Shown in pieces: positions 6,491 to 38,352 of a DNA stretch of 45,300 nucleotides. Made by a program: the position numbers and the translations under genes. Below the pieces are notes generated by a model, which was not told the origin of the DNA, did not search any database, and worked only from the letters and a program-made list of their open reading frames with translations. The stretch's first letter is position 1. Each line of letters opens with the position of its first letter. The stretch is from an uncultured Bacteroidales bacterium (GTDB lineage Bacteria; Bacteroidota; Bacteroidia; Bacteroidales; Bacteroidaceae): positions 1 through 45,300 of the forward strand of contig CACZBC010000014.1 in the NCBI GenBank assembly GCA_902779315.1, written 5' to 3'.

Positions 6491-6620
6491 CATCACACTA
6501 GTAAATTGCAAACGTCACACTAGTAAATCGCAAACGTCACACTAGTAAATCGCAAACGTCGCACTAGTAAATTGCAAACGTCGCACTAGTAAATCGCCAA
6601 CGTCACACTAGATGTTTTGC
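6491..6620. repeat. 22-bp tandem array 1 (six units)
   Basis: ACTAGT or ACTAGA begins at 6497, 6519, 6541, 6563, 6585 and 6607, exactly 22 bp apart. On + each unit reads ACTAGTAAAT, then YGCAAACGTC, then RC; the last copy diverges. The array fills the gap between the convergent COG2509 gene and the sialate O-acetylesterase gene and ends 3 bp from the latter's stop. Positions 6510-6557 are identical, in inverted orientation, to 14276-14323 in array 2. It has no coding potential and no CRISPR-like unique spacers. Confidence 0.92.
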
Positions 6621-6623
6621 TTC

Positions 6624-8717
6624 TTACTTAATGTCGTTCCAATCGTCGGTTCTGAATGGGCCTACAGGAAGCCCTGAAACAGTCCTGAGAGTGCATTCAG
6701 GATTGTCGGCCCAACCATAGCGAACGGCAACAGGATGGGACACTTCAGGACTCTCCACAACTACAGGCCAACCGAAACGAATATTGTTGTCGTTTTGCGT
6801 ATAATAAGCCTTTGCAACGTGCCAAACATGGTCTGGACCTGCAATCGAAAAGCCCTTGATGTCCGAGTTCTCTGCCAACATATCGCTACCATAAGTGGGC
6901 ATGAACATGAGATGGGCTTTACCATCAACCACATTCATCTGACGGAACTCAGGAGCAGCACAGAACTCTTGTTCACCATAGGTTCTGTTGAGCGCAAGCA
7001 AAGCCAATCGGCGACCAACTTCTTGTTTGTTCTTCGGATGGATGTCATTTGCCATACCGATGTCGATGTTCACAGCCATTCCAACTCCATCGAGCCGTAA
7101 AGCCTTTCGTTGTGCTTCGCGAATAGCAGCCCAACCGGATTGAGGTTGCAGGTCTTTCCTTTGCAAGTAATTGGCAATCTGCACAAAGTAGAAGGGGATG
7201 GCTTTCGAATTGTACTGATAGAAACGGCGAGGTCCTTCTGGGGCTGGCTTGGGATAGGGAGTTACCTCAGAGTTCTTGTTGAAGCGAGCTTGCCAATCGA
7301 GAATCAAAGCCTGGAAGAGGCTCTCATACTGCACAGCTCTGCCCACATTCGAACATCCTTGATACCAAAGGAAACCACGAATGGGCATCGAGAGGAACGG
7401 AGCAACCATACTGTTGTAGAGACCGGCAGGATACCAGGCATTGTTGGGTGCCACTGGTTCCGTCATCTTCGGAGAACTGGTAATGTCTGCAGCAGCGACA
7501 CTGGCCCTCCACTTCCAATCGCCCGCAAGCGAGAGGACTGTGCTGCCGTTGTTAACGAGGAAATCCTTTGCATCCTTATAGAAGCCGCCATCGCCACCAG
7601 TATCATATACGCGAATAGTAAGTACATTCTTGCCGGCCTTCACCAACTTTCCTGGAACGGTATAGTTGCGATCGCGATTCCAGCCAGAATTCATACCGAT
7701 GCGCTGTCCATTCCAATAAGTGACGTCCTCGTCGTCGATGGCACCAAGCTCAAGCTTCAGGTCCTTGCCGGCAAGCGAAGCAGGAATGTCCACTTCCTTT
7801 CGCATCCAGACAATACCGTCGAAGTCCTTCAGTTCCTCAATCTTGCTCCAAGAACGCGGTTGTGTTGTTGACTTCCAACCGGAATCATTGAAATCCCTTG
7901 CAGCCCAAAGTGCTTTGTCGATTTGGCCTTTCTCGAGGCCTGCATCATTTCTATACACTTCCTGCATCCATTCGCGACGTTCGTCTTGATAGAGTTGATT
8001 GATTTTATCCTCATCGAAGCCTGTTGCAAAGAGCCTCTTGGCATGATCTTGGAAACCTATTACATTCTGCAGGGCCTCGAGGCTTGGCCAACTTTCGGCA
8101 GGCGTTCCACCCCAAGAACTGTTGACCACGCCAACTGCGATACCCAACTTCTCCGATACCTCGCGAGCAAAGAAATAAGCGGCAGCCGAGAACTCCGCAA
8201 CCATCTCAGGCGAGCAGACTGCCCAGCCTTTCGTATGGCCAAGGGGAACCTTTGTCTGAGGTGTATGGGCAACAACTTTCTCCACTTGGAACAAGCGAAT
8301 GAGAGGGTGATTGGCGTTGGCAACCTCCTGTTCGAAGTTGTTCACCATACCCCAACCTTTGACAGGCATTTCCATATTCGACTGACCACTGCAGAACCAC
8401 ACTTCGCCAGCCATCACATTCTCCAGCAGGAGCTTCTTACCATCGTCGAAGGTCAATGTGTAAGGTCCGCCAGCAGAAGGCACATTGAGGTCAAACTCAA
8501 AGGTTCCAGAGTTCTTGTCGGCAACAGCTTTCACAGTTTTCTTGTCCCACGATGCAGTTATCTTCACTGTAGCACCCTTCTTGGCCGTAGCCTGAAGGTG
8601 AACCTTGGTTTTCTGTTGAAGAACCATGTTCGAGGTCATCCATCCAGGCAGAACGACGTCGGCCCAGGTCATAGCAGCACAGAAAGCTGCTGTAAGGAAT
8701 AAAGAAAGACGTTTCAT
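6624..8717 (-). CDS. Secreted sialate O-acetylesterase (SGNH family)
   Basis: A 697-residue secreted or periplasmic esterase with a signal peptide (MKRLSLFLTAAFCAAMTWA). Block I of the SGNH fold is WFCSGQSNME with nucleophile Ser113; GVVNSSWGGTPAESW follows, and the catalytic Asp/His pair is in NDIHP (Asp558, His560). A galactose-binding-like jelly-roll domain is inserted at about 270-400 (WMRKEVDIPASLAGKDL, YWNGQRIG), which is the usual layout of bacterial sialic-acid-specific 9-O-acetylesterases. The family removes O-acetyl groups from sialic acids, although related enzymes act on other acetylated sugars. It is the last gene of the operon, 4 nt after the acyltransferase stop. No sialidase or nan genes are in the window, so the true substrate is open. 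Confidence 0.88.
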   Translation of the reverse strand: MKRLSLFLTAAFCAAMTWADVVLPGWMTSNMVLQQKTKVHLQATAKKGATVKITASWDKKTVKAVADKNSGTFEFDLNVPSAGGPYTLTFDDGKKLLLENVMAGEVWFCSGQSNMEMPVKGWGMVNNFEQEVANANHPLIRLFQVEKVVAHTPQTKVPLGHTKGWAVCSPEMVAEFSAAAYFFAREVSEKLGIAVGVVNSSWGGTPAESWPSLEALQNVIGFQDHAKRLFATGFDEDKINQLYQDERREWMQEVYRNDAGLEKGQIDKALWAARDFNDSGWKSTTQPRSWSKIEELKDFDGIVWMRKEVDIPASLAGKDLKLELGAIDDEDVTYWNGQRIGMNSGWNRDRNYTVPGKLVKAGKNVLTIRVYDTGGDGGFYKDAKDFLVNNGSTVLSLAGDWKWRASVAAADITSSPKMTEPVAPNNAWYPAGLYNSMVAPFLSMPIRGFLWYQGCSNVGRAVQYESLFQALILDWQARFNKNSEVTPYPKPAPEGPRRFYQYNSKAIPFYFVQIANYLQRKDLQPQSGWAAIREAQRKALRLDGVGMAVNIDIGMANDIHPKNKQEVGRRLALLALNRTYGEQEFCAAPEFRQMNVVDGKAHLMFMPTYGSDMLAENSDIKGFSIAGPDHVWHVAKAYYTQNDNNIRFGWPVVVESPEVSHPVAVRYGWADNPECTLRTVSGLPVGPFRTDDWNDIK

Positions 8718-8721
8718 ATCG

Positions 8722-9843
8722 TTATGATTTAGAATTAAATTTTCCGGTTAACCACTTTCGCAAAGGCTCGTCGTAGAAGAGCATGCAAAGTGTCGCTATA
8801 AGCAAGGAAGCCACAAGCGCGATGACAGCAGCCAGCCAAGGATGGGAATGACCGATGTATGTGTATCCGCTCTTTTGTACCCATGCGATATAAAGATAAA
8901 TGAACGGGAAATGGATGGCATAAAGAGGGTAGGAGAGTCTGCCCAGGAAGGAAACAACCTTCTGCCTCCAACCAGACACCATACCGCGAGCCCCAAACCA
9001 AACAATCGTCGGGAACAGGGACAAAATGCAGACAAGTTGGTATATCGTTTCCATGTCCTTACTGCCTAAAAACGGGAATCCTAATAAAACGATTAACGCA
9101 AGACTACACAAGAGAAACATGTGTCCCTTTATAGGCTTGGGCTGACGCTCACGAAAGACTCTTGCCATCAACAGTCCCATCGGATAGGCATAGAGCATCC
9201 TAAGGGCTCCACCCAGGAAATTCCTCGGTTCGGACGACCATCCGTAAGCAATGCCGCCATCCTCCGCCAAAAGTGCAAAACCAGCAATCGAGATAATGCT
9301 GCAAGCCACCCAAACCCGAAGCCACTTTGTAGAAAGCTTGTGCAACAACAACACATATAACAAACTGCCGATGTACTCGAAGAAAAGCGACCAATGCGGA
9401 CCATTGAGCGGAAAGGCTTCAGTATTGCCGCGAACTTCCATACTGGCTGGCGATGGAATAAGGAACAGCCCCAGCAAGGTTGCATACATCAAAGCTTGAG
9501 TGGCGACCTGAGTACCGTCCCACTTCGTAAAGCCCTGAACAGCGAAGGCAATTGCTCCTATCAGGACACCCATCACAACCATAGGATGCAATCGGATGAG
9601 TCGTCGCTTGATGAAACCGCCAGTTGTCAGCGTACCCTCGAGAGCTTTGTCATACGCATAGCCCATCACAAATCCGGAGAGGATGAAGAAGAAGTCCACA
9701 CCAAGGAAGCTGTGATAGAACTCATTGACAACAGTAGGCCAAACAATGAAACTCTTTGCATCATTGAAGACGTGGTAAAACAGAATCATCATGGCTGCCA
9801 CTCCTCGCAACCCATCCAGGATGTCGTATCTTGGTCTATTCAT
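8722..9843 (-). CDS. Acyltransferase 3 family membrane protein (OafA/YrhL-like)
   Basis: A 373-residue integral membrane protein with about 10 hydrophobic helices. The N-terminus has the family hallmark R..ILDGLRGVAAMMILFYHV, whose Arg and the His of YHV are the conserved residues, followed by FLGVDFFFILSGFVMGYAY. Such proteins transfer acyl groups, usually acetyl, across the inner membrane to sugars of surface or secreted polysaccharides. Its ATG overlaps the end of the preceding 1413-residue gene by 8 nt and its stop lies 4 nt before the esterase start, so the three genes are very likely one translationally coupled unit. An O-acetyl transferase next to an O-acetyl esterase is notable. Substrate unknown. 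Confidence 0.9.
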   Translation of the reverse strand: MNRPRYDILDGLRGVAAMMILFYHVFNDAKSFIVWPTVVNEFYHSFLGVDFFFILSGFVMGYAYDKALEGTLTTGGFIKRRLIRLHPMVVMGVLIGAIAFAVQGFTKWDGTQVATQALMYATLLGLFLIPSPASMEVRGNTEAFPLNGPHWSLFFEYIGSLLYVLLLHKLSTKWLRVWVACSIISIAGFALLAEDGGIAYGWSSEPRNFLGGALRMLYAYPMGLLMARVFRERQPKPIKGHMFLLCSLALIVLLGFPFLGSKDMETIYQLVCILSLFPTIVWFGARGMVSGWRQKVVSFLGRLSYPLYAIHFPFIYLYIAWVQKSGYTYIGHSHPWLAAVIALVASLLIATLCMLFYDEPLRKWLTGKFNSKS

Positions 9844-12800
9844 AAACTATTTTCTTTCCATTGATAATATAGATGCCTTTTTGCAATTTACCCGTTACCA
9901 TTCTACCGCTGAGGTCATAAATCCGATTGTTGCTCCTTGATTCCCGACTCTCTATGACCTGAATACCATCGGGGTTTTCTTTCTCGCCAAGCATTTGCTC
10001 GCGGAAGTTGTCTATAGCTTCATCGCTCAAGCCAAATTCCGTAGTCAGGTAAGTACGGAACTTCTGCTCCAGAGTCTCTCCATCCAATGCCTCAATCATA
10101 GCGAACATAGCATCAAGTTGACCTTTGCTGCAAGGCGTATTGAAGTACGAGAAGTTGGTCAACTCGTAGTCCTTGTAGATGTCGCTCTTGCTCATTCCCA
10201 GCACACCTTCGAGCAGGAAGGCCAGGGTGCCAGTTCGGTCTCTGCCGATAGCACAATGGAAATATACGGGCTTGTTATTCTTCACACATGTCAATACGAA
10301 CTGCAATGCTGTCTTATACGTACTCTTAGAGTTGGTCAGACCTTCCATATGGCTGGCTGTCTGTCCAAGAGGTGTGCGCTTGTAGGTAATATCATTACCA
10401 AGAACTGACTTCGTGATATTCTTTGCCTCACTGTCGCTTCGCAAATCCAACTCGGCTTTTATGCCTGCTTGACGAAGTGCCTCGATGGCTTCAGACTCCA
10501 GGTTGTGGCCGCCATTCCATTCGGCTCCTCGGAATATCTTGCCGTACTTTACCACTTTGCCACTTTCTGTAGTCCAACCACCTAGGTCACGCACATTTGC
10601 AGTACCCTCAGCCTTGAGGTGGCGCATCTGGCCAGATGTGATGAACGAGAAGTTGGCAAGTTCTGATGTGCCTTCTCCGTTTTCCGCTGTCACTTTGCAG
10701 TAATATTTGCGACCTGGGATAAGGTTGTATATCTCGTATGAAGCGGATTCTGTGGGCACACTTTGAGTCACTGCATTGGCAAAGTCAGAACTTTCGCTCC
10801 AGGTTATATACTGTGCTTCTGCAGTGCTGTCTTGTGTCCAGAAGACCTCTACAGGCAAGGGCCAGTCGCGGCGAGTTGGGGGTCCGACATTGTAGACACT
10901 TACCTTGCTGACATCGCTCTCAGTGTACTCAAAGTCATGAACAAAGCCACGAACTCTCTCATTCTCCAGGTTGTAGTCCATGCTGAACATGCCCGCCGTT
11001 GCTGGATGCATATGCCACATCTGACGACGTTCGAAGCTGCCTCCAGACGGATAGTTGTACACTCTGACTCGAGTGCCTGTATAAGCATAAGGGAATGTAG
11101 CTGTTCCCTGTATCTTGAAGTGGCCGCCACCAACCCAAGTTATCATCTGTTCGTAAGTTGCATCCTCAGTAAGCGATATAGGCTTAGCGTTAACGTTACC
11201 GCCTATCACTGTTCCCACATACATTCCATTGTCGACACATTGCATCAACCAATTGCCATTCCTACGAATCAGCTTGAAGTAGGGAGGAGTCTCTAACTCT
11301 TCCAGAGCCACAGCCTTCAGTCCGTCTCTGTTTGCGTTGGCAGCATCTCCCCTCAGAACAAAGCCGGGGAAGGCCACATTCTCCAAGTAATAGTAGCCTT
11401 CATGAAGTGGATAAGAGTAGAGGCTTTCGTGGGCAATCATGATGCCATTGATGGCATTGTTGAGTTGTTCTAATGAAGCGCTCTCATCCAACGCTTGTGC
11501 CTCAGTAATCGCATCGCTGAATGCCTGGGCAGAACTTACGGAATAACAGCCAGGATCAGTACCTACAGCATCTCCTGTAGGAAGTTTCGCACCATATTCA
11601 TTAAGTACATTCTGCAAATCGGCAAAGTTGTACTCTTTCCAAAGATCACCTATAATGTCGTAAGTACTCCATACTGCATCTGCCAAGAATGCATTGTACA
11701 TTGTCGGCCGGACATGGACGTTTGCCCCGGTAAAGTCGAAGGTATAGCTGCGGAGCTTGGGCACAGCGTCGCAGTTCATATAGACTTCGTACTTCTTTCC
11801 GCCATAGATGCAGAGTTTGTCGCCCCAAGTATTGGCTGCGATGTTCTCTCCGAATGTGATTTTCCCCAGTACCTTATTATATCCAAGGGCTTCATAGTCC
11901 ATCAACGTAACTGAGTTGGGCACAACAATTTCCGTGAGTTGGGTTTGATAGATGGCTTTGTAACCAAGCTTTGTTATGCCCTCAGGCAGGTTGAGAGCCG
12001 TGATATTGGCAAAATGGAAGGCATAGTCTCCGATGGCAGTCACATTGTATGTCTTGCCTTTTATCGTTACTGTTGCCGGAATTGTAATTTCTCCGCTATA
12101 AGTGCAGGGGTTGCTTTGTGAGGGTTGTTCTGCATTGGGATAGGTCACAGACACAGTGTTGTGACCTGTTATTTCGTATTTGATGCCGTTTACCACCAGT
12201 TCGTCTTCAGCAATTGTCCCTTCTCTGTCCTGAGGAATGGGGTATTCTGTGCCTTGAGCCCAGTTGTTGGCATCGAGTTTCTCAGGTAATGTGCCATCCG
12301 TGAGTTGAGCTGAAGTCACCTCGACGACAGCAGGAATCTTTGTGGATGCAGTGGAGCTACCTGTTATGGGAAGACCTTGAAGTATGTAATTATTGCTGAA
12401 GACTGAGGCATCAGAGGTACTGCTTCCCACCAAAGCACCACTTCTGGTTGCACCACTTGAGTTGCTTAAGCTGCCGATGCTCAAGTTGTTAGCGATGCTT
12501 ACACCACTTCTGGCGCTACTGCTATAACCTACGATTCCACCCATATAAGCACTGTTGCTGCTGGTTCCAGTAGAGGAGAGCGAACCAGCGAATAGGCAGT
12601 TGCTTACAGTTGTATTGTTTGCATCTGGCCAACCCAGAATGCCTGCCACTTGCAGATTTGTGGCGACACCCTTTATTGTACCATCATAGACACATCGGTT
12701 TATAGTGCTTCCTTCAGCTCTGACAACTACGCCAGCCATTCGAAGCGAAACTCTGGCAGTAGAAGCATTGGTGATGTCGACTGAACACCAAACATCCTGT

Positions 12801-14077
12801 ATCTTGTGAGCACCATTGGATGAAGCGACTACGCCAGAAGCGAAATGGTCAACAGTAGTACCCGAAGCTGTCACAGAACCCATGATTTTGAAGTTGTGGA
12901 CATCCTTCGTTCCGCTGTGATAGCCGATGAAAGCTGCGTATTGAGTGGAGGCATCAGCCACAACCTTGAAGTTCCTGATGGTATAGTTCTGGCCGTCAAA
13001 CTCGCCACTATGCTTGCTGGCATTGTTTCCCATAGGTGTCCAAGAACGGTTCTCGAGGTCGATGTCGGCTGTGAGTCGGGCATTTACAGAGGGATTTCCG
13101 TTGTTTACCATACGAGCAAGCCAGAAAAGTTTGCCTCCATTGTCTATCTCGTAATAGCCTTCATCGTCTTTCTTGGCTGGCTCGAATGGTGCTGAAGCAC
13201 AAGTGCAGAAGCCATTTACGTATTCATGTTCATGCGAGCTGGGAGTGGCTATGACAATGTTGGGAACAGTTCTGACAGAGCCTCCACTAGGTGTGTTGAC
13301 GACTCCAGTTCCAGTCACCCAAAGCGTAGAAGAGCCTCCACCATCCAGATTGATGGCATCCGTCATTCCCAAGTCCTCTGCAAGACGCAGCAGGTTCGCC
13401 AACGAGAAACCAGTCGCGCCATCCATTCGACCTTCCGTAATTACCATATATACAGTGCCGTCAGCACATTTTCCAAGCATTGTGCGAGGATGCGGACCAT
13501 AGAAACCTTCGCCTCCGATATTGACATTCTGGCTTATACCATTTCTTCTGATTATCGGTCCGGAAACTATGTAGCTGTCGTACTTCGCTCCCCAAGCTGC
13601 ATGATCGGCAGCCGTATTCGAATTGCTGTAAGGCTCTATCGTGAAGCCTCCATCCTTGAAGCCCAAAACGCCATTGCATCTGGCATATTCTTCCGGAGCA
13701 GTAGTTGCAATCTCTGTGCCGTCAACCCAAAGCGCAGTAGTCGAGGTGAGGTTCGACATGTTGAAATAACTGCCGTTGATTGCAGCTGTAGCTCCTGCTT
13801 CCACAGCTAGTCCGTTTGTTCCCAAAGTAGAGTGCTCCTTGACATAGAGGGTGGTGTTCATCGTCGATTGGGCATATTTGGCAATCGAAACCCTTTGCGG
13901 AGAGCCGTAGAGGTCAGTAAAGCTCGCTTTGCCGTAAATGACACCATCGCGGCTTTGCCAGCCCCAATCGGCATTGGCAAGTATCGCAGTATAATCTGTT
14001 TGGCCCAGGACTGTCGCCGATATGGCGAAGAGAACAAACAGAAAAGACAATCTGAATTTGAGAACAGTTGATTTCAT
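9836..14077 (-). CDS. Secreted chimera: phosphodiester glycosidase, GLUG-like, LRR, FN3 and tyrosine-phosphatase-like domains
   Basis: A 1413-residue secreted protein with a signal peptide (about 1-25). Domains in order: phosphodiester glycosidase (NAGPA/DUF2233-like, about 30-280, with AAINGSYFN at 98-106, PHPRTMLG at 195-202 and AINLDGGGSSTLWV at 241-254); a GLUG-like repeat region (about 305-570, e.g. GGIVGYSSS); a BspA-like leucine-rich repeat segment (about 640-790, ITIPATV, AIGDYAF, IVVPNSV); a helical FIVAR-like stretch (about 810-885); an unassigned beta-rich domain (about 890-1025); fibronectin type III (about 1055-1150); and a tyrosine/serine-phosphatase-like domain (about 1150-1365) with NVRDLGGW, ELDLRSD and the P-loop HCAIGRDRT (Cys1275, Arg1281). 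The C-terminus (1384-1413) is a YDLSGR...KGIYIINGKK tail resembling a type IX sorting tail. All catalytic motifs look intact. I infer stepwise removal of a phosphodiester-linked sugar and then the phosphate from a glycan. First gene of a three-gene operon with a strong promoter. Confidence 0.82.
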   Translation of the reverse strand: MKSTVLKFRLSFLFVLFAISATVLGQTDYTAILANADWGWQSRDGVIYGKASFTDLYGSPQRVSIAKYAQSTMNTTLYVKEHSTLGTNGLAVEAGATAAINGSYFNMSNLTSTTALWVDGTEIATTAPEEYARCNGVLGFKDGGFTIEPYSNSNTAADHAAWGAKYDSYIVSGPIIRRNGISQNVNIGGEGFYGPHPRTMLGKCADGTVYMVITEGRMDGATGFSLANLLRLAEDLGMTDAINLDGGGSSTLWVTGTGVVNTPSGGSVRTVPNIVIATPSSHEHEYVNGFCTCASAPFEPAKKDDEGYYEIDNGGKLFWLARMVNNGNPSVNARLTADIDLENRSWTPMGNNASKHSGEFDGQNYTIRNFKVVADASTQYAAFIGYHSGTKDVHNFKIMGSVTASGTTVDHFASGVVASSNGAHKIQDVWCSVDITNASTARVSLRMAGVVVRAEGSTINRCVYDGTIKGVATNLQVAGILGWPDANNTTVSNCLFAGSLSSTGTSSNSAYMGGIVGYSSSARSGVSIANNLSIGSLSNSSGATRSGALVGSSTSDASVFSNNYILQGLPITGSSTASTKIPAVVEVTSAQLTDGTLPEKLDANNWAQGTEYPIPQDREGTIAEDELVVNGIKYEITGHNTVSVTYPNAEQPSQSNPCTYSGEITIPATVTIKGKTYNVTAIGDYAFHFANITALNLPEGITKLGYKAIYQTQLTEIVVPNSVTLMDYEALGYNKVLGKITFGENIAANTWGDKLCIYGGKKYEVYMNCDAVPKLRSYTFDFTGANVHVRPTMYNAFLADAVWSTYDIIGDLWKEYNFADLQNVLNEYGAKLPTGDAVGTDPGCYSVSSAQAFSDAITEAQALDESASLEQLNNAINGIMIAHESLYSYPLHEGYYYLENVAFPGFVLRGDAANANRDGLKAVALEELETPPYFKLIRRNGNWLMQCVDNGMYVGTVIGGNVNAKPISLTEDATYEQMITWVGGGHFKIQGTATFPYAYTGTRVRVYNYPSGGSFERRQMWHMHPATAGMFSMDYNLENERVRGFVHDFEYTESDVSKVSVYNVGPPTRRDWPLPVEVFWTQDSTAEAQYITWSESSDFANAVTQSVPTESASYEIYNLIPGRKYYCKVTAENGEGTSELANFSFITSGQMRHLKAEGTANVRDLGGWTTESGKVVKYGKIFRGAEWNGGHNLESEAIEALRQAGIKAELDLRSDSEAKNITKSVLGNDITYKRTPLGQTASHMEGLTNSKSTYKTALQFVLTCVKNNKPVYFHCAIGRDRTGTLAFLLEGVLGMSKSDIYKDYELTNFSYFNTPCSKGQLDAMFAMIEALDGETLEQKFRTYLTTEFGLSDEAIDNFREQMLGEKENPDGIQVIESRESRSNNRIYDLSGRMVTGKLQKGIYIINGKKIVYE

Positions 14078-14235: not shown

Positions 14236-14326
14236 TCAAACGACTAGTGTGACGATTGCGATTTACTAGTGTGAAGTTTGCGATTTACTAGTGTGACGTT
14301 TGCGATTTACTAGTGTGACGTTTGGG
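14236..14326. repeat. 22-bp tandem array 2 (four units)
   Basis: ACTAGT begins at 14243, 14265, 14287 and 14309, exactly 22 bp apart. The units are the reverse complement of array 1 units: ACTAGTGTGA, then CGTTTGCG, then ATTT on +. The array abuts the stop of the gate-domain gene (TTA at 14328) and lies upstream of the chimera operon promoter. Positions 14276-14323 are a 48-bp perfect inverted copy of 6510-6557. Confidence 0.92.
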
Positions 14327-23790: not shown

Positions 23791-23810
23791 ATAATAAGGT
23801 ATAAGGGAAA

Positions 23811-23913
23811 ACGTCACACAGTTAAGTTTAAAACGTAACACTATACGTTTGCGATCGTAACACTATACAATTGCGATCGTAACACTATACGTTTGCATTT
23901 TAACTACGTTAAC
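23811..23913. repeat. 22-bp tandem array 3 (three clear and two degenerate units)
   Basis: ACACTA or ACACAG cores start at 23816, 23838, 23860 and 23882, each 22 bp apart. Clear units read CGTAACACTA, then TACGTTTGCG, then AT. The end is the palindromic TTAACTACGTTAA (23900-23912), which also closes array 5. The array lies between the convergent DUF4923 and ABC genes and abuts the stop of the ABC gene (TTA at 23917). Confidence 0.88.
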
Positions 23914-29845: not shown

Positions 29846-29955
29846 ACTACAGTGACGTTTGCAATTTACTAACGTGATGATTGCAATTTACTAACGTGAT
29901 GTTTGGCATTTACTAACGTGACGTTTGTGAACTACTCTGGCGAAGTTTCTGAAAC
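29846..29955. repeat. 22-bp tandem array 4 (four clear and one degenerate unit)
   Basis: GTGAYG cores begin at 29852, 29874, 29896 and 29918, each 22 bp apart, with a weak fifth copy at 29940. Clear units read GTGACGTTTG, then CAATTTACTA, then AC on +. This is the array 1 type in reverse orientation, with ACTAGT changed to ACTAAC. It starts about 15 nt after the stop of the SusE/F-like gene. Confidence 0.88.
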
Positions 29956-30776: not shown

Positions 30777-31241
30777 ATGGAATATATGTCACAAGAAGGC
30801 TACGACAAGATTGTAGCCGAACTACACGAACTCGAAACTGTTGAACTGCCTCGAGTAAAAGAAGCCATTGCAGAAGCTCGCGACAAAGGTGATCTGAGCG
30901 AGAACTTCGAGTATCATGCTGCAAAGCGAGAGCAAGGAAAGCTTCTCGGCAGGATTCGTTTCATGCAAAGAGTATTGGAGTTTGCCAGAGTGATAGACAC
31001 ATCGAAGCTTCGCAGCGATGGTATCGGCTTATTGAACAAGGTGGAGATGGTCAACCTGAGCAACAACACCAAGATGACTTACACTATTGTCAGCCCTCAC
31101 GAAGCAAACATGAGCGAAGGAAAACTCTCCATCAAATCGCCCATCGCACAAGCTCTTTTGGGAAAGAACGAAGGTGATGAGGTCGAGGTTAAAGTTCCTG
31201 TAGGCGTCCTAAAACTCCGTATCGAAAGTGTTACACGTTGA
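30777..31241 (+). CDS. greA: Transcription elongation factor GreA
   Basis: A 154-residue factor that rescues backtracked RNA polymerase by stimulating transcript cleavage. The N-terminal coiled coil has ARDKGDLSENFEYHAAKREQ, which contains the acidic tip (Asp and Glu) that reaches the polymerase active site. The C-terminal FKBP-like domain has IVSPHEANMSEGKLSIKSPIAQALLGKNEGDEV. The length is normal. ATG 30777 is used; a second in-frame ATG lies three codons later. Its 3' end overlaps the convergent HAD gene by 11 bp. A perfect hairpin sits immediately upstream. Confidence 0.96.
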   Translation: MEYMSQEGYDKIVAELHELETVELPRVKEAIAEARDKGDLSENFEYHAAKREQGKLLGRIRFMQRVLEFARVIDTSKLRSDGIGLLNKVEMVNLSNNTKMTYTIVSPHEANMSEGKLSIKSPIAQALLGKNEGDEVEVKVPVGVLKLRIESVTR

Positions 31242-32034: not shown

Positions 32035-32537
32035 TCGTCTTGAAGTTTTAGGATGAGTGTTGTCGCGCCAATCGTGATGACAGATCCGTCTTGCAGTCGA
32101 ATCCGGTCTTGATCGCGAAGAATCTCGTTCATGTAAAAGGTTCCTGTTCCTGAAGGGGCATCGCGAAGGATGTATTGAAGCTGCCCATCCTTTCCTCTTT
32201 GCACTCGGATGATGCAATGACGGGTGTCGACACTTGGGTCGACTGTCTCGATAGGTTTGTTGATGTTCGTGCCATGAACGTATCGGCCAAAGACGTTATC
32301 GCCCATTTCTAGCATGATTTCCTGCTTGAAGTGGAACGCGTTCTCAACAATTATGACTGAGCCGAGATTCTCTTGCGGCTCTTCTTGTTCCTCGTCTTCC
32401 TTCTTCGGCTCAGGCAATCTGATTGCAAATTGCTTGTTGCATTCGCTGCAAACGAAGACGAGACGTTGACCTGGTTGGTAGCGCGTCTCGTCGAAGACTG
32501 TATAGCTGTTGCATTTGGGGCAACGAACTTTCTTCAT
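32031..32537 (-). CDS. Zinc-ribbon and FHA domain protein
   Basis: A 168-residue cytosolic protein. The N-terminus is a zinc ribbon with CPKC (6-9) and CSEC (about 30-33), similar to MJ0042-type fingers. An acidic Glu-rich linker (about 46-57) leads to an FHA domain (about 75-165) with FGRYVHG, SVDTRHC (the S..H phosphothreonine-binding pair) and the C-terminal GSVITIGATTLIL. FHA domains bind phosphothreonine peptides, so a Ser/Thr kinase partner is implied by family knowledge, but none is in the window. It lies 12 nt after the HU/SPOR gene. Confidence 0.85.
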   Translation of the reverse strand: MKKVRCPKCNSYTVFDETRYQPGQRLVFVCSECNKQFAIRLPEPKKEDEEQEEPQENLGSVIIVENAFHFKQEIMLEMGDNVFGRYVHGTNINKPIETVDPSVDTRHCIIRVQRGKDGQLQYILRDAPSGTGTFYMNEILRDQDRIRLQDGSVITIGATTLILKLQDE

Positions 32538-32549
32538 GATGATGTCTTT

Positions 32550-33542
32550 TTATTCAAGTGTATTCACTTCGCCTTTAAGTTTCAGAGGCCATGCTTGAGC
32601 AAAGTCGCTACATTCTGCTTTGTACTGACGGATCTTTTCTGCAGCTTCATCTTCGCTCGCGAAGCCTGGTACGATGACGCGAACCATTTTTCCTATTGTG
32701 CAAGCCTGGGCATTATAACCCTTTTCCTGGAGTTGTGCGGCATAGTTGAGGGCACGCTTCGGACTGATGGCACTAGCTAGAACTATTGCGTAGTCTTTGG
32801 GTGCGGCCTGTACTGGAGCTGCTTGCGGTTCTTCCTTTACAACGGGTTGTGCTTCAACGGCTTTCGGTTCAGGTTTTACTGAAGGCAGGAACTTTGTGGC
32901 AAAGAACATTTCCGCTTGCTGACTTACTCCAGATGTGATGGATTTGCCGAAAGGTGAGGTTATGGCGAAGAAGAGTAGAACTGAAGCCGCTACTGCAGAA
33001 GCGTAGTTGAAGGCACGACGGTTGATGCGGATTGTTATCGTGTCCTGATCGGCCTGGATGCTGGTCAGCCTTACTTTGTTGGCAGCCTGTTTCTTCGCTC
33101 TTTGCTGGCGAACTTCGTGGCTCAGCTTCGCGAAGGGAACTGCATCGAGTCCATAAAATGACGGAGATGCGATTCCTGACTGTTGCGGTATGAAGCTGAC
33201 CTGGCCCGTTTCGGCATTTCGAGTCATATAACCCATGCTGCCAAAGCTGACGGTTCCGTCTTCTTCGAGTGTTTGAAGGAGTTCGTCGACGTACTCGACA
33301 CACATCATTCGCGAGTCGTTGCGCGACAGATTGTGCAGTTTCGAGAACGAAAGGATGAAGTCCTCTCCCGTTTCGAGTTCGTTCCACTTGAAGGAGACGG
33401 TTCGATAGGGAGGCAGGAAGATGCCCTCTTCATCCACTCGTTTACTGCTCATCTCCCTGACTGTGAAGGTTCCCAACCCTGGGACACTCACTTCGTCATG
33501 ATGGAGAAGCAGATATTCGATATGTGTTGACAGTTCTATCAT
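32550..33542 (-). CDS. HU-CCDC81-like and SPOR domain membrane protein
   Basis: A 330-residue protein. An N-terminal HU/CCDC81-like region (about 1-140, HIEYLLLHHDEVSVPGLGTF) is followed by a cytosolic linker, one TM helix (about 178-197, AVAASVLLFFAI), a Pro/Ala/Glu-rich spacer and a C-terminal SPOR domain (about 245-325, DYAIVLASAISPKRALNYAAQLQEKG). SPOR domains bind denuded peptidoglycan at division sites, so this bitopic protein probably links the cytoplasm to septal cell wall. It starts at the stop of the OmpH-like gene (1-nt overlap). Confidence 0.85.
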   Translation of the reverse strand: MIELSTHIEYLLLHHDEVSVPGLGTFTVREMSSKRVDEEGIFLPPYRTVSFKWNELETGEDFILSFSKLHNLSRNDSRMMCVEYVDELLQTLEEDGTVSFGSMGYMTRNAETGQVSFIPQQSGIASPSFYGLDAVPFAKLSHEVRQQRAKKQAANKVRLTSIQADQDTITIRINRRAFNYASAVAASVLLFFAITSPFGKSITSGVSQQAEMFFATKFLPSVKPEPKAVEAQPVVKEEPQAAPVQAAPKDYAIVLASAISPKRALNYAAQLQEKGYNAQACTIGKMVRVIVPGFASEDEAAEKIRQYKAECSDFAQAWPLKLKGEVNTLE

Positions 33543-34165
33543 TATTCTTTGTTAGCCTTAATTTGCTCAGCCACTTCGGGTTTAATCTTGTATCGTTTGT
33601 TCAATCCTTTAACGATATCGTTGGTGATGTTGAACTTGGGATTGGCGATGAGAAGGTTGTCTCCGGCCTTGACAAGAACGTAATCGTACTTCTTGGTCTT
33701 GTTGTAGCGCTTCAGGAACGACTGGATACTGTCGCGAGCTTCCTCGTTGATGCGGGCCTGTTCCATAGCGAACTCGTTCTGCAGACGGTCGGCCAGTTCA
33801 GCCAGATCGCTTTGTTCCTTCTGGATGGAGGCTTGAGCGCGTTCCAACTCGTCGCGAGTGGTGAACTCGTTGCTCTCGTACTTCTTCTGGACGGAAGCAG
33901 CGTGGTTTTCCAGCGCCCTTTGCTTCTGGGCCAGAGTTTTCTGGATGTTATTGCCTTTGCGGGTAAGCACCTCGCTATAGTCCTTGTAGAGCTGGTACTG
34001 GCTCATCAGTGTGTCGAGCTCGACGTAGGCAATCTTGAGTTCCGTTGGCTCTTCCGTCTGAGCGGTTTCCTTAGTCGTTTCCACATCGTTTTTGCTGCCA
34101 CAAGCGCAGAAGAGAAGTGTTGCAGCGGCAAATCCGCAATAGGTCAGATACTTTTTCATAATCAT
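33542..34165 (-). CDS. OmpH/Skp-like lipoprotein
   Basis: A 207-residue predicted lipoprotein: signal sequence, FCAC lipobox (Cys22), Thr/Glu-rich linker, then IAYVELDTLMSQYQLYKDYSEVL (about 44-66), a long charged coiled coil (about 70-150) and a C-terminal strand YDYVLVKAGDNLLIANPKFNITNDIVKGLN. This is the OmpH/Skp chaperone pattern, although classical Skp is soluble. It likely helps outer-membrane protein folding. A downstream in-frame ATG (34159) is an alternative start. It heads the OmpH-HU/SPOR-FHA-HAD operon with a good promoter. Confidence 0.82.
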   Translation of the reverse strand: MIMKKYLTYCGFAAATLLFCACGSKNDVETTKETAQTEEPTELKIAYVELDTLMSQYQLYKDYSEVLTRKGNNIQKTLAQKQRALENHAASVQKKYESNEFTTRDELERAQASIQKEQSDLAELADRLQNEFAMEQARINEEARDSIQSFLKRYNKTKKYDYVLVKAGDNLLIANPKFNITNDIVKGLNKRYKIKPEVAEQIKANKE

Positions 34166-34185
34166 ATTTTATTGTTTATTTTGTG

Positions 34186-34216
34186 CAAAGATACTGCTTT
34201 TTTCTGGAAATTGAAA
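34186..34216 (-). promoter_or_regulatory. Promoter of the OmpH-like operon
   Basis: On the minus strand TTTC (34216-34213), then 19 nt, then TATCTTTG (34193-34186), ending 20 nt before the ATG at 34165. Confidence 0.65.
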
Positions 34217-34275
34217 GTATTTTGGCAGAAAAGAATTTCAAGGGGTCAACATCTCGCTGTAAAAGACGGGCTGGC

Positions 34276-34370
34276 GTGATTCGAAACGTAACACTATACG
34301 TTTGCAATCGTCACACTAGATGTTTGCGAACGTCACACTAGATGTTTGCGATTTAACAACGTTAACTTTT
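34276..34370. repeat. 22-bp tandem array 5 (three clear units plus end palindrome)
   Basis: ACACTA cores start at 34291, 34313 and 34335, each 22 bp apart. Units mix the array 3 form (TATACGTTTG) and a TAGATGTTTG form. The end is TTAACAACGTTAA (34353-34365), matching array 3. A 22-bp stretch (34284-34305) is identical to 23831-23852. It lies downstream of the DUF3276 gene, whose stop is about 36 nt to the right, and upstream of the OmpH-like promoter. Confidence 0.87.
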
Positions 34371-34405
34371 GCATCTTCACTGCAGTCGTTTCCCGTCCTG
34401 AAGTT

Positions 34406-34741
34406 TCAGAAGTCCAAATCTATCTTGATGGGGTCGGCATCTTCCTGGCTTTCAGGCGTTTCCGGCTGACCTTCCTTGACGAACTTAAAGGCGTCGGCCA
34501 AAGCATCGCCGAACTTCTCGAAATCCTCCTGGAAGAGGAAAATCTTGTGCTTCTCGTAGCTCACTTGAGGCATATCCTGAGGTCCGCTCAGCATCTTCTT
34601 GCTTTCCGTGATGCTGAGGTACATTTCACCCTTGCGGTTCTGCTTCACATCGATGTAATAGATACGCTGCCCCGCCTTCACTGTCCGCGAGAATAGGATT
34701 TCGGCATCTCTGCCCTCGATAGGTTTCTTCTCTGTTTCCAT
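34406..34741 (-). CDS. DUF3276 / PUR family DNA- and RNA-binding protein
   Basis: A 111-residue protein with the PUR-like fold pattern: ILFSRTVKAGQRIYYIDVKQNRKGEMYLSITESKK (about 15-49), then YEKHKIFLFQEDFEKFGDALADAFKFV (about 62-88) and an acidic C-terminal tail. Bacteroidetes DUF3276 proteins are small homologues of eukaryotic PUR-alpha and bind single-stranded nucleic acids. It is monocistronic with its own promoter box and divergent from nusB. Confidence 0.88.
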   Translation of the reverse strand: METEKKPIEGRDAEILFSRTVKAGQRIYYIDVKQNRKGEMYLSITESKKMLSGPQDMPQVSYEKHKIFLFQEDFEKFGDALADAFKFVKEGQPETPESQEDADPIKIDLDF

Positions 34742-34766
34742 AAGTACTCAAAGTGCTTTTGTTTGA

Positions 34767-34774
34767 CAAAAGTA
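34767..34774 (-). promoter_or_regulatory. -7 promoter box of the DUF3276 gene
   Basis: TACTTTTG on the minus strand, 26 nt before the ATG; the -33 is weak. Confidence 0.55.
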
Positions 34775-34815
34775 CAAAATAATTATGAAATATGAAGCAT
34801 TTCATTCTCTCATTT

Positions 34816-34846
34816 TTTCATTCTTTCATTTTTTTTCGTACCTTTG
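34816..34846 (+). promoter_or_regulatory. Promoter of the nusB operon
   Basis: TTTC (34816-34819), 19 nt, TACCTTTG (34839-34846), 26 nt before the nusB ATG. The -33/-7 spacer is a T-rich tract with repeated TTTCATTC. The extended box GTACCTTTGCACGC is the same as before thrA. Confidence 0.65.
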
Positions 34847-34872
34847 CACGCAAATAAAGATAAAAGCGCTCT

Positions 34873-35817
34873 ATGATAAACCGAGAATTGATACGAATTA
34901 AACTTGTGCAAGTGCTCTACTCCTATCTGCAGAAGGGAACTCACAACCCGGATGTAGCCGAGAAGGAACTGCTGCTCAGTCTGGACAAAGCATACGACCT
35001 CTATAACTACCTTTTGCTGCTTATGGTCGAGCTTAGCCGCATGTCGGTCCGCATGCTGGAAGTGCACGAAAACCGCAGCAAGAAACTCAAGGACGGCATC
35101 GTCTGGAGCCATAAGTTCGTAGACAACCGCTTCATCATTCAGCTCGAATCGAACCGGCAGCTTCGCGATTACTGCTCAGAACACGAACTCAGCTGGGCCG
35201 ACCATGAAACCTTCGTACGCAACCTATATAATAAGGTAGAGGAAAGCGACTTCTACAAGAACTACATGGCCAGCGAAACCTCCAGCTACGAAGAGGATCG
35301 CGAGGTTTGGCGAGTCATCTACCGCCAGCTCATCGTGGGCAACGAGGAACTCTCCGAACTGCTGGAAGACAAGAACGTCTATTGGAACGACGACAAAGCG
35401 ATAGTCGACACATTTGTGCTCAAGACCATCAATCGCTTTTCCGCAGACAGCACTCCCACGCATCCGCTGATGCCCGAATACAAGAGCGATGCCGACCTCG
35501 ACTTCGCAAAGAAACTCCTCTATCGAGCCATAATGGGTCAGGAACACTTCAACGAACTCATCACCAGCACAACTCGCAAGTGGGACTTCAAGCGAATCGC
35601 ACTCATGGACCGCATCATACTGCAGCTCGGACTCGCGGAAATAACGACGTTCCCCAACATTCCATTAAGCGTCAGCATAAACGAATATGTCGATCTTGCC
35701 AAGATGTACAGCACCCCCAAAAGCGACAAATACATCAACGCCACACTCGACGCCATCGCCAAGAAACTGATAGAAGAGGGAAAACTCGTAAAGGAAGACA
35801 CAAACAACCAACAATAA
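34873..35817 (+). CDS. nusB: Transcription antitermination factor NusB (long form)
   Basis: A 314-residue protein. The C-terminal part (about 205-305) matches NusB (LYRAIMGQEHFNELI, WDFKRIALMDRIILQLGLAEITTFPNIPLSVSINEYVDLAKMYS, KYINATLDAIAKKL). The N-terminal helical extension (MINRELIRIKLVQVLYSYLQKG) is typical of Bacteroidetes NusB, which is about twice the length of the E. coli protein. NusB with S10 promotes antitermination on rRNA operons and rRNA processing. First gene of a five-gene operon; yajC starts 4 nt after its stop. Confidence 0.92.
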   Translation: MINRELIRIKLVQVLYSYLQKGTHNPDVAEKELLLSLDKAYDLYNYLLLLMVELSRMSVRMLEVHENRSKKLKDGIVWSHKFVDNRFIIQLESNRQLRDYCSEHELSWADHETFVRNLYNKVEESDFYKNYMASETSSYEEDREVWRVIYRQLIVGNEELSELLEDKNVYWNDDKAIVDTFVLKTINRFSADSTPTHPLMPEYKSDADLDFAKKLLYRAIMGQEHFNELITSTTRKWDFKRIALMDRIILQLGLAEITTFPNIPLSVSINEYVDLAKMYSTPKSDKYINATLDAIAKKLIEEGKLVKEDTNNQQ

Positions 35818-35821
35818 AACT

Positions 35822-36124
35822 ATGATTACATTACTTCAAGCTCAAGGTGGAGGCAACATGTCGTTCCTCCTGATGATGGTGATCATCTTCGCCATTATGT
35901 GGTTCTTCATGATTCGTCCACAGCAAAAGAGACAGAAAGAAATCCAGAACTTCCGTGCAAGCATTACCCGCGGCTCGAAAATCGTCACAGCTGGAGGCAT
36001 CTACGGAACCGTAAAGGACATCGACGAAGCAGCCAACACGCTCAAGGTTGAGATTGCAAACGGCATCTGCATCACAGTCGACAAAGGCAGCGTCTTTGCT
36101 TCCCCACAGGCAACAATACAGTAA
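35822..36124 (+). CDS. yajC: Preprotein translocase subunit YajC
   Basis: A 100-residue protein with one TM helix (about 15-36, MSFLLMMVIIFAIMWFFMI), the signature RPQQKRQKEIQNFRASITRGSKIVTAGGIYGTV (about 37-69) and a small cytosolic beta domain. YajC associates with SecDF in the Sec export machinery. Length and motif are typical. It sits 4 nt after nusB and 6 nt before the YbbR-like gene. Confidence 0.94.
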   Translation: MITLLQAQGGGNMSFLLMMVIIFAIMWFFMIRPQQKRQKEIQNFRASITRGSKIVTAGGIYGTVKDIDEAANTLKVEIANGICITVDKGSVFASPQATIQ

Positions 36125-36130
36125 AAGAAG

Positions 36131-37138
36131 ATGGCGAAAGGCAAGAAAACATTCAAGCAAATGGAGGAGAAACTGTTCGGACACAAGAGTCACGAACTGC
36201 TCGTCTTTTGCTTCTTTCTTGCCGTCTCGTTCGGATTCTGGATCCTTCAAGCCCTGAATGAAACCCTTCAAAGGGAAGTGCAAGTCCATCTGGAACTCGA
36301 GAACGTCCCCTCCGATGTCGTCATCATCGACTCGCTCCCTCCCACCCTCAGCGTCACGCTGCAGAACAGAGGTCTGGCCCTTGCGCGACACAGCTTCTCG
36401 AGCCTGTTCAGACCAAACCGTTTGGAACTGGATTTCACAAAATTCGACACAAAAAAGAACGACGGCGAGGTCTATATCACATCTGCCGACATACAAAGAA
36501 TGTTGGGACGCATCTTCGTGCCTTCGATGAAGATACAGTCCTTCAGGCCCGATACGCTTCGCTTCGCCTACAATCACGGCCTTTCGCGAATGCTGCCAGT
36601 CAAGCTTGCGGGCAAATTCAAGGCACACCAGCAGAACTACATTCAGAGCATTCGCGTGGAACCGGACTCAGTCAAAGTCTTTGCTCCAGCAGCAATCCTC
36701 GACACCATGCATGCCGCATATACCGAACAGTACCTCTTCGAGGGACTTCACGAAGCAGGCAGTTTCCAGGTTCCCATGCGAGGGCAAAAACTCGTGAAAT
36801 ACGATCCGTCGCTGGTCAAAATCAAAGTCGGAGTCGGTTATTACACGGAGAAAACAGTCGTGGTGCCTGTGATAGGGCTCAACTTCCCGGCAGAAAAGAA
36901 GCTTCGAACCTTCCCTGCTCAGGTCAACATCACTTTCAGAATCGAGTCTGGACGCTATCACAAAATCTCTTCCGAAGACTTTGTGCTCTCCACGACCTAC
37001 GAGGACTTGCTCGACAACACAGAAAACAGCAAGCTGACCCTGCATCTGAAAACCGTTCCCGAAGGCGTCTCGAACGTCAGGATATCACCCAAACAAGTCG
37101 ATTATCTCATCGAACAAGTCGCTCAGGAAGAACAATAA
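36131..37138 (+). CDS. YbbR-like domain protein (CdaR-like)
   Basis: A 335-residue protein anchored by one N-terminal TM helix (about 24-43, LLVFCFFLAVSFGFWILQAL), followed by an extracytoplasmic region of beta-rich YbbR-like repeats (LPPTLSVTLQNRG at about 65-77; VEPDSVKVFAPAAILDTM at about 176-193). In Firmicutes the related CdaR controls a diadenylate cyclase; here no cdaA is adjacent, so a c-di-AMP role is only inference. The order nusB-yajC-ybbR-coaE places it in a housekeeping operon. Confidence 0.82.
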   Translation: MAKGKKTFKQMEEKLFGHKSHELLVFCFFLAVSFGFWILQALNETLQREVQVHLELENVPSDVVIIDSLPPTLSVTLQNRGLALARHSFSSLFRPNRLELDFTKFDTKKNDGEVYITSADIQRMLGRIFVPSMKIQSFRPDTLRFAYNHGLSRMLPVKLAGKFKAHQQNYIQSIRVEPDSVKVFAPAAILDTMHAAYTEQYLFEGLHEAGSFQVPMRGQKLVKYDPSLVKIKVGVGYYTEKTVVVPVIGLNFPAEKKLRTFPAQVNITFRIESGRYHKISSEDFVLSTTYEDLLDNTENSKLTLHLKTVPEGVSNVRISPKQVDYLIEQVAQEEQ

Positions 37139-37152
37139 ATTAATAATGTATA

Positions 37153-37755
37153 ATGGCAAAAACGCTCGGCATAACAGGTGGCATAGGTAGCGGAAAGAGT
37201 TACGTCTCTACCCTACTCCAGCAACAATTCGGCATTCCCGTCTATGACTGTGATGCCGAAGCAAAGCGACTTACAGCCACAAACGAGGAGATTCGCCAAA
37301 AACTCATCGCTCTGGTCGGTCCTGAAGTGTTCGAGGGCGGAGAACTCAACAAGCCCCTCCTTGCCGAATATCTCTTTGCCGATGTCGAGAATGCCAGCCA
37401 CGTTAATGCCATCATCCATCCTGTCGTCTTAGAAGACTTCGTCAAATGGTCTTCTGCAAAAGGGGATCAGGAACTTGTTGGCTTGGAGAGTGCAATACTC
37501 TACGAAAGCGGTTTCAACGAAAAGGTTGATTACGTCCTCTTCGTTGACGCGCCAAAAGAAGTCCGCCTCCACAGAGCAACACTTCGAGACTCTGCCTCCG
37601 AAAAACAGATTGAAGCGCGAATGAAGATGCAACAACCTGAAATTCATCGCCTTCAGGCTGACTTCATCATCGATAACGGCACGAATGACGACACAAGATT
37701 ACAGGAACAATTGAAACACATAATTAATAAAATAACATGCTCGAAACAATCTTAG
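37153..37755 (+). CDS. coaE: Dephospho-CoA kinase
   Basis: A 200-residue cytosolic kinase for the last step of coenzyme A synthesis. P-loop GITGGIGSGKSYVS (about 6-19), VYDCDAEAKRL (substrate Asp), and the lid region VRLHRATLRD with ARMKMQQP are visible. Length is normal. It starts 14 nt after the YbbR-like gene, and its 3' end overlaps the next gene by 19 nt. Confidence 0.95.
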   Translation: MAKTLGITGGIGSGKSYVSTLLQQQFGIPVYDCDAEAKRLTATNEEIRQKLIALVGPEVFEGGELNKPLLAEYLFADVENASHVNAIIHPVVLEDFVKWSSAKGDQELVGLESAILYESGFNEKVDYVLFVDAPKEVRLHRATLRDSASEKQIEARMKMQQPEIHRLQADFIIDNGTNDDTRLQEQLKHIINKITCSKQS

Positions 37756-38177
37756 CAATCTCCGGAAAACCCGGACTTTACAAACTCGTATCTAGAGGTA
37801 ACCACAACCTCATCGTTGAAACGCTCGACACACAGAAGAAACGTTTCCCTGCTTTCGCAGCAGACAAAATCATTTCACTTGCCGACATCGCAATGTACAC
37901 AGATGAGAAGGAAGTTCCTCTTCGCGAAGTCTTGAACAACATCAAGGCAAAGGAAAACGGCAAAACGACCTCCATCGACTACCGCAAAGCATCAAAAGAC
38001 GAACTCTTTGCTTTTCTTGGCGAAGTTTTGCCCGATTTCGACCGCGATCGTATCTACCCAAGCGACGTCAAGAAGCTCATCCAATGGTACAACATCCTCA
38101 TCGAAAACGGCTTGACCGACTTTGATGAAGCCCTTAAGGAAACAGAGGGCAACAACATCGACGACAGGAAGGAGTAA
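37737..38177 (+). CDS. DUF5606 domain protein
   Basis: A 146-residue cytosolic protein. The N-terminal SH3-like part (MLETILAISGKPGLYKLVSRGNHNLIVETLD) and RFPAFAADKIISLADIAMYT match DUF5606, a Bacteroidetes family of unknown function usually found next to coaE. The C-terminal helices (about 85-135) contain DRDRIYPSDVKKLIQWYNILIENG. Last gene of the nusB operon; array 6 begins 23 nt after its stop. Confidence 0.85.
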   Translation: MLETILAISGKPGLYKLVSRGNHNLIVETLDTQKKRFPAFAADKIISLADIAMYTDEKEVPLREVLNNIKAKENGKTTSIDYRKASKDELFAFLGEVLPDFDRDRIYPSDVKKLIQWYNILIENGLTDFDEALKETEGNNIDDRKE

Positions 38178-38200
38178 TAATCCGACTCGTCAGAATATAA

Positions 38201-38352
38201 AACATGACGTGCTGCGTTCTACAACGTGGCACGTCATGTTTGTAAACTTGGCACGTGTCGTTTGCAAATTACACACGTGTCGTTTGCGAATTACACACGT
38301 GAAGTTTGTGAATTACACACGTGATGTTTGCGAATTACACACGTGATGTTTG
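38201..38352. repeat. 22-bp tandem array 6 (six units) with 12-bp hairpin
   Basis: ACGT cores lie at 38231, 38253, 38275, 38297, 38319 and 38341, exactly 22 bp apart. Later units read ACACACGTGATG, then TTTGCGAATT. At the left end AACATGACGTGC (38201-38212) pairs perfectly with GCACGTCATGTT (38229-38240), so the first unit forms the right arm of a 12-bp stem with a 16-nt loop. The array fills the gap between the convergent DUF5606 and GH35 genes and could also end transcription. Confidence 0.92.

Follow-up and report, generated by a model that had tools for sequence, protein, structure and literature searches.

The question raised by this locus is why six intergenic places within one 45,300-nt stretch of an uncultured Bacteroidales genome (contig CACZBC010000014.1; the whole stretch is called the window throughout) carry short tandem arrays whose units recur at exactly 22 bp, each close to the end of a gene. 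All together, our data indicate that species have the pitch and an inclination to dyad symmetry in common, but not the sequence of the unit. The reading that we put forward, with a probability of roughly one in three, is that the arrays are sites for dimeric DNA-binding proteins, which would form a cooperative coat insulating gene ends.

The six arrays described in the initial annotation of the window proved genuine: all of them were called at period 22 by Tandem Repeats Finder, and their units were also read directly. A motif-free self-comparison of the window returned exactly six period-22 stretches, in agreement with the strict period that had been claimed. Periods 8-43 other than 22 gave none, save one stretch at period 9, and the four stretches at period 44 are the harmonic of 22. 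Similarly, a search with a two-box pattern found 11 matches in the window and 0 in 100 shuffles. The units abut, with no unique spacers between them, and the earlier statement that these are not clustered regularly interspaced short palindromic repeats (CRISPR) therefore stands.

To place the window in its genome, we sampled the source assembly (G000; 2.83 Mb, or 2826 kb, in 107 contigs, 84% complete) through 20 further stretches of 20 kb, which together with the window amount to 445,300 bp from six of the 107 contigs. Across these 445 kb a motif-free scan identified 49 arrays at period 22, against 0-4 for each of the remaining periods between 12 and 40, corresponding to one array per 9 kb or, by extrapolation, about 300 per genome. 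Over this 445 of 2826 kb the arrays are thus neither confined to the window nor random with respect to genes, two of the outcomes against which the annotation had asked to be checked; they occur throughout the sampled contigs and are associated with the 3' ends of genes. The annotation had counted three to six units per array in the window; in the wider sample 47 of the 49 arrays have 3-9 units, caps included. One loose unit family, of which AACGTCACACTAGTAAATCGCA is a common form, supplies at least 3 units in 47 of the 49. Its words vary in blocks, the box CACACTAG alternating with CACACGTG, AACACTAT, CACGTGTG and GGCACGCC, and the arm flanking the box is found in both orientations. The same genome holds two further 22-bp unit families, at L049:13475-13579 and L061:16513-16639, one of which directly adjoins an array of the main family.

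The position of the arrays relative to genes was then assessed. Genes in genomes of the G000 and G012 type (G012 is a relative of the same genus) were predicted with a home-made open reading frame caller, which for G012 used the codon statistics of the source genome, except in the test of distances to stops and starts; gap and terminator counts refer to gaps of at least 60 bp, and context counts exclude arrays at the ends of stretches. In the source genome, 34 of 49 array centres lie no more than 120 nt after a stop codon, where 17% would be expected for non-coding positions (p = 3e-16), while the 120 nt that precede a start contain only 7 of 49 (19% expected). Consistently, for 39 of 49 arrays a stop is nearer than a start (50% expected, p = 4e-5). 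An array is present in 11 of 24 gaps between convergent genes, in 29 of 98 between codirectional ones and in 5 of 36 between divergent ones, the difference between convergent and divergent gaps being significant (p = 0.008). In G012, the 120 nt that follow a stop hold 23 of 45 array centres (19% expected, p = 9e-7). Nine arrays from Bacteroides finegoldii and Parabacteroides distasonis could be placed on the gene table of a plasmid collection, incomplete by its own description: five are convergent, those at L246:39904-40062 and L251:34371-34463 among them, two are codirectional at 20-34 nt after a stop and two are divergent. Within the window, distances taken from the open reading frame list bear out the proximity of every array to a stop codon (nearest stop at 35 nt or less), and the gap types are as claimed, three convergent and three codirectional.

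A functional hint came from intrinsic terminators. At convergent ends of the source genome, a terminator outside the array was found at 5 of 22 ends with an array and at 16 of 26 without one (p = 0.009), and pooling the convergent ends of the source genome and G012 retains a deficit (p = 0.03). Our best guess from these counts is a stopping or insulating role of the arrays at gene ends.

We next consider how far the pitch extends in related genomes, a comparison proposed together with the initial annotation. A 28-base pattern (one unit plus a quarter) scanned against a collection of 84,980 species matched 48 stretches in five assemblies, namely Bacteroidaceae bacterium RGIG9745, RGIG10220 and Tb.RUG.125, Prevotella sp. 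RGIG1061 and Prevotellaceae RUG606. A habitat is named in three of the five assembly titles (yak omasum, yak rumen, dairy-cattle reticulum); RUG in assembly names presumably stands for rumen. The source of the window is thus most likely a Bacteroidales species living in the gut of ruminants. The motif-free scan gave a much broader picture, with 22-bp arrays of unrelated units in other species and genera. In G012 it detected 45 period-22 arrays in 475 kb and 0-4 at other periods up to 43; 29 of the 45 combine GGTTAACC-like boxes and AT-rich arms, some others resemble the family of the source genome and the rest are different again. One G012 array (L204) mixes units of two families within a single 22-bp register. 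Among the first 22 stretches from the same genus, period 22 led with 16 arrays, followed by heptad harmonics (10 at period 21 and 8 at period 14), and eight more stretches brought the count to 25 period-22 arrays in 561 kb, a set that has one stretch, carrying four arrays, in common with the G012 sample. Two consensus units of this set, GTAACTCCCCTAGGGGAGTTAC and CGATGAAGCAATTGCTTCATCG, are perfect palindromes. In other genera of the family we found 8 period-22 arrays in 238 kb, present in four of nine genomes, with 0 or 1 at the remaining periods, the harmonic 44 apart. For the arrays from other species of the genus and from other genera, gene context was checked for one in L226 only, and some may be coding.

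Named isolates also carry such arrays, 14 in 525 kb of three isolates: Phocaeicola massiliensis has 5 in 150 kb, P. distasonis 7 in 200 kb, and B. finegoldii 2 in 175 kb, the last being weak alone since four other periods occur once each. None was detected in 100 kb of Prevotella oral taxon 299 (1 at a relaxed threshold), nor in 100 kb each of Monoglobus and a Hymenobacter plasmid. A sample of other families, 249 kb in 18 stretches of which some are very short, likewise gave 0, yet Parabacteroides, which is positive, belongs to the Tannerellaceae. A query of the G012 type had no match in 151 genomes of the family, in a search run without a positive control. Among viral sequences, IMG/VR contains one array of the source-genome dialect on two contigs (L219:12843-12945 and L220:7663-7765), apparently the same phage recovered from two metagenomes, since gene calls and array coincide at one offset. 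The G012-type pattern had no match in IMG/VR, and the consensus array none in the annotated phages searched.

The arrays were also examined at the level of the single unit. In 53 of 137 arrays overall, the consensus unit exceeds its shuffles in palindromic character (p < 0.05); by group, this applies to 24 of 45 arrays in G012, 14 of 35 in the rest of the genus and 4 of 8 in other genera. In arrays with a clear dyad, compensatory double changes numbered 12, 16, 13 and 8 in the four groups, compared to 11.5, 19.2, 14.0 and 11.3 with shuffled halves. The half-units thus vary independently, because compensatory doubles do not exceed the shuffled halves in any of the four groups. Among 247 units of the source genome, a single pair (positions 5 and 12) matches above expectation (0.70 versus 0.50), the others being within 0.05 of it or below, and the best-varying stem positions pair less than expected (0.38 versus 0.49). 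The two most variable pairs in 82 G012 units are far below expectation (0.23 versus 0.43). In addition, the codirectional arrays of the source genome show no strand bias, 15 being sense and 15 antisense (n = 30). Since the halves vary independently, pairs are not kept and neither strand is preferred, these data favour recognition of half-sites in double-stranded DNA, as by a dimeric protein, over recognition in RNA.

Starting from these observations, we propose the following arrangement. Each unit would consist of two inverted 11-bp half-sites, so that an array would present alternating half-sites every 11 bp. A sequence-specific DNA-binding protein would sit on each unit as a dimer; alternatively, several related proteins would do so, since more than one unit family occurs in the same genome. 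Three or more dimers side by side could then coat the DNA cooperatively over a short distance where a transcription unit has its 3' end, and this coat may block or insulate transcription, and the supercoiling that goes with it, from the neighbouring gene. The protein, its dimeric state, the coat and the role at transcription ends are all inferred. More generally, and with a confidence that stays somewhat short of even, we suggest that gut Bacteroidales share a 22-bp ruler, either a protein coat or a DNA-processing enzyme, making or reading palindromic tandem sites at gene ends nearly independently of their sequence, in such a way that the dialect turns over and the pitch persists.

Several results weigh against the insulating coat. 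With regard to terminators, the deficit in the source genome fades once terminators that overlap the array are included (9 of 22, p = 0.25), its codirectional ends show none (4 of 25 with an array, 14 of 77 without), and neither do the convergent ends of G012 (6 of 13 and 33 of 65). Counting overlapping sites even turns the G012 figures into an excess, both at convergent ends (11 of 13 versus 33 of 65, p = 0.03) and at codirectional ones (7 of 20 versus 13 of 94, p = 0.046). With regard to placement, convergent and codirectional gaps of the source genome differ little in array content (p only 0.15), and G012 arrays are closer to a stop than to a start in 23 of 45 cases, which is no excess (p = 0.37). 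The initial annotation had stated that no array lies in a divergent gap; this is true of the window and fails outside it, where divergent gaps hold 5 of the 47 source-genome arrays for which both neighbours were called, 13 of the 41 assigned in G012 and 2 of the 9 from the annotated isolates. One such array of the source genome lies between genes with RelA/SpoT and PepSY-like domains.

The units themselves raise further objections. Just 11 of the 49 arrays of the source genome are individually palindromic beyond chance. The alignment of all units on one DNA face, as originally suggested, is only approximate: a pitch of 22 bp is one more than two turns of B-DNA (21 bp), and at 10.5 bp per turn five units drift by about 171 degrees, so that the sites rotate slowly around the helix. 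A Pfam search of seven genes beside four divergent arrays of the source genome and of three array-side genes of the window gave no common DNA-binding candidate; moreover, the presence of more than one unit family in a genome would call either for several proteins or for one of broad specificity. Finally, in 18 orthologous pairs the aligned array bases differ by 11.5%, compared to 6.8% in the 300-bp flanks, with 3.5% differences at the most conserved unit positions (0, 2, 4, 7 and 17) and 35% at position 18. The spared positions may reflect a constraint on the unit or an exchange of units from one pool, and it is the second origin, exchange between arrays, that could deprive the coat of this support.

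The history of individual places bears on the alternatives, and for this purpose the six arrays of the window are listed here.

Array 1, 6489..6620, no strand: about 6 units of the AACGTCACACTAGTAAATCGCA type in a convergent gap, starting 15 nt after stop 6473; neighbours are a gene for an FAD-dependent protein (plus strand, stop 6473) and a SASA/GH2-like gene (minus strand, stop 6624).
Array 2, 14236..14326, no strand: 4 units in a codirectional gap, adjoining stop 14328 of a Gate-domain gene (minus strand).
Array 3, 23810..23913, no strand: 3-4 units of the AACGTAACACTATACGTTTGCG type in a convergent gap, ending 3 nt before stop 23917; neighbours are a DUF4923 gene (stop 23722) and an ABC ATPase gene (stop 23917).
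Array 4, 29846..29955, no strand: 4-5 units in a codirectional gap, 14 nt after stop 29831 and upstream of an aquaporin-like (MIP) gene.
Array 5, 34276..34370, no strand: 3 core units of the AACGTCACACTAGATGTTTGCG type in a codirectional gap, 35 nt from stop 34406 and downstream of the DUF3276 gene that ends there (minus strand).
Array 6, 38201..38352, no strand: 6-7 units of the AACATCACGTGTGTAATTCGCA type in a convergent gap, 23 nt after stop 38177 and 11 nt from stop 38364; neighbours are a DUF5606/DUF6852 gene (stop 38177) and a GH35 gene (stop 38364).

Orthologous arrays at 84-96% nucleotide identity were compared in 25 rows, which cover 17 different arrays of the source genome and include four rows that repeat a comparison under a second locus name. 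The length shift is an exact multiple of 22 bp in 22 of the 25 rows (two of them zero), the remaining three differing by 21, 21 and 89 bp; without the repeated rows, 18 of 21 different comparisons are exact multiples. The ortholog of array 4 in L150, for example, is two units (44 bp) longer, and a near relative has just one unit at the place of a five-unit array of another family. In eight aligned ortholog places (one flank only) caps and flanks are mostly unmoved. Presence of the array in 23 of the 25 rows overstates retention, as the near-relative loci were fetched by the array pattern; both rows scored as absent still keep one or two units. At locus L058:3564-3704, counted as present, the near relatives L151 and L119 carry an oppositely oriented array with different caps between the same flanks, which is the replacement of a whole array.

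At longer distance, the gap of array 1 is short and free of an array in G005, where the flanking protein is 93% identical, and in G008; the empty site of G005 is too diverged for its junction to be read, and no clean pair of empty and filled sites was found at close distance. The gap of array 3 holds, in G012 (L188) and in G024 (L191), a 22-bp array of a different unit, of the GGTTAACC type. Over 25 comparable adjacencies conserved between the source genome and G012, arrays occur in 3 of the former and 3 of the latter, and in both at 2, which is suggestive only of array places being conserved over long distance.

These shifts by whole units are what would be expected if the arrays were inert minisatellites made by a ruler, that is, if an enzyme cutting or copying in 22-bp steps at palindromic sites (for instance, a nuclease or recombinase that acts as a dimer and leaves ends staggered by 22 nt, which are then filled in) built tandem duplications, which would pile up at gene 3' ends through tolerance of insertions there. 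The five-unit array matched by a single unit, the empty place of array 1 in G005 and the fact that unrelated sequences have only length and dyad in common all agree with such an origin, and gene-end placement is neutral towards it, as tolerance could explain that placement. Local duplication alone, however, would not be expected to let one unit family dominate the sample as it does, and substitutions are spread unevenly over the positions of the unit. We consider this origin doubtful, though deserving of serious attention.

According to a second alternative, which we judge unlikely, the arrays act as RNA: a unit or a pair of boxes would form a hairpin at the transcript 3' end, and the array would work as an intrinsic terminator, possibly bidirectional, or as a barrier to 3' exonucleases. 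Many single units can indeed be drawn as hairpins with an 8-9 bp stem and a loop of 6 nt, and folding of the 49 arrays of the source genome gave mean z values of -2.2 and -2.0 on the two strands. G012 offers further indications, since downstream T-runs and upstream A-runs mark 16 and 13 of its 41 array edges, compared to 4 and 3 in the reverse arrangement, and its ends with an array are richer in terminator-like sites once the overlapping ones are included. On the other hand, fold values beyond z -2 are reached by only 23 and 17 of the 49 arrays on the two strands, compensatory changes are lacking, variable stem positions pair below expectation, and Rfam gave 0 matches in the window at gathering score. 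In the source genome the edge runs are weak (8 of 47 for both T- and A-runs, versus 2 and 7 of 47), and ends with an array are no richer in terminator-like sites. A hairpin per unit was accordingly set aside, as the pair counts and compensatory tests gave it no support and folding only a partial one. The protein on each unit that the initial annotation had envisaged fits better, while the T-runs and overlapping terminators of G012 leave room for a terminator role of the RNA.

Far less probable is a miniature transposable element with an internal minisatellite, like BrickBuilt of Porphyromonas gingivalis. As described in PMC4596501, BrickBuilt combines a minisatellite of 23-nt units with a miniature inverted-repeat transposable element, has a leader and a tail ending in insertion sequence-like inverted repeats, and occurs in P. 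gingivalis and P. gulae. The likeness to our arrays lies in the order Bacteroidales, the intergenic tandem units without spacers, their expansion and contraction by whole units and the many copies per genome (PMC4596501). The arrays described here differ in having 22-bp units, no common flanks and many unrelated unit families across species and genera. Period 23 gave 0 stretches in the samples from the source genome, G012 and the other genera, 2 in the other families, 1 in L198 and 1 in Parabacteroides. An all-against-all comparison of the 300-bp flanks of the 49 arrays detected no common leader or tail; apart from two arrays in one gap, matches were limited to three locus pairs above 50 bp (294, 75 and 62 bp) and four pairs of 24-31 bp, which gives no support to a mobile element with common flanks. 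PMC4596501 also mentions 22-nt tandem repeats in P. gingivalis W83, there without locations, and these may be the same phenomenon.

In one of the flank pairs, L056:18906 and L057:6226, about 290 bp of right flank are shared at 89% identity, including a terminator-like hairpin; this stretch is probably a duplicated segment carrying an array end.

Least credible is an element of the repetitive extragenic palindromic (REP) or bacterial interspersed mosaic element (BIME) kind spread by a REP-associated tyrosine transposase (RAYT): such elements of E. coli are likewise palindromic, intergenic, located at the 3' ends of genes and repeated hundreds of times, a likeness by description only, and they have a conserved hairpin with a foot tetranucleotide, whereas our arrays keep a strict head-to-tail register of 22 bp, their sequence is not conserved between species, and a search for the RAYT domain Y1_Tnp (PF01797) gave 0 matches in the source assembly, 84% complete, and matches in 5 of 14 control genomes, E. 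coli included.

Two other systems invite comparison. Plasmid iterons, some of them 22 bp long, are tandem sites for a dimerising DNA-binding protein, set at about two helical turns as our units are, whereas the arrays occur about once in 9 kb, scattered along chromosomal contigs at the ends of genes. The TAACTGA heptamer arrays of Beggiatoaceae, Cyanobacteria and some Bacteroidetes resemble ours as genome-wide intergenic direct repeats in short sets and, according to PMC4679880, lie mostly just before start codons in the best-studied genome; that heptamer has a fixed sequence of 7 nt, whereas the 22-bp arrays are free in sequence and lie mostly after stops. PMC5771137 states that it left short repeats of 3 to 31 bp unannotated. 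An open-access literature search, with subscription papers (the W83 genome paper among them) outside its scope, returned no description of 22-bp arrays conserved in length and free in sequence. We regard these arrays as a variant of the intergenic minisatellite with a constant length of 22 bp.

Intergenic tandem repeats are usually dismissed as noise. A length fixed at 22 bp, in a sequence that changes wholly between species and at an estimated 300 places per genome, calls for a physical ruler. If the ruler is a protein, it would be a new transcription-end or chromosome-organising factor of gut bacteria; if it is an enzyme, it would be a new source of tandem duplications. The occurrence of arrays in named isolates makes bench tests feasible.

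As for the remaining content of the window, its genes include lon, thrA and the gene for pyruvate phosphate dikinase (NCBIfam). Two repeats of other kinds were also observed. At 4784-4869, two heptamer arrays, ATAATTC repeated 4.6 times and AATGGTC repeated 4.6 times, lie within, and at the border of, the divergent gap that separates thrA from the gene for the FAD-dependent protein. At 34800-34834, a short TTTCATTC array of period 8/16 lies between the genes at 34406-34741 and 34873-35817.

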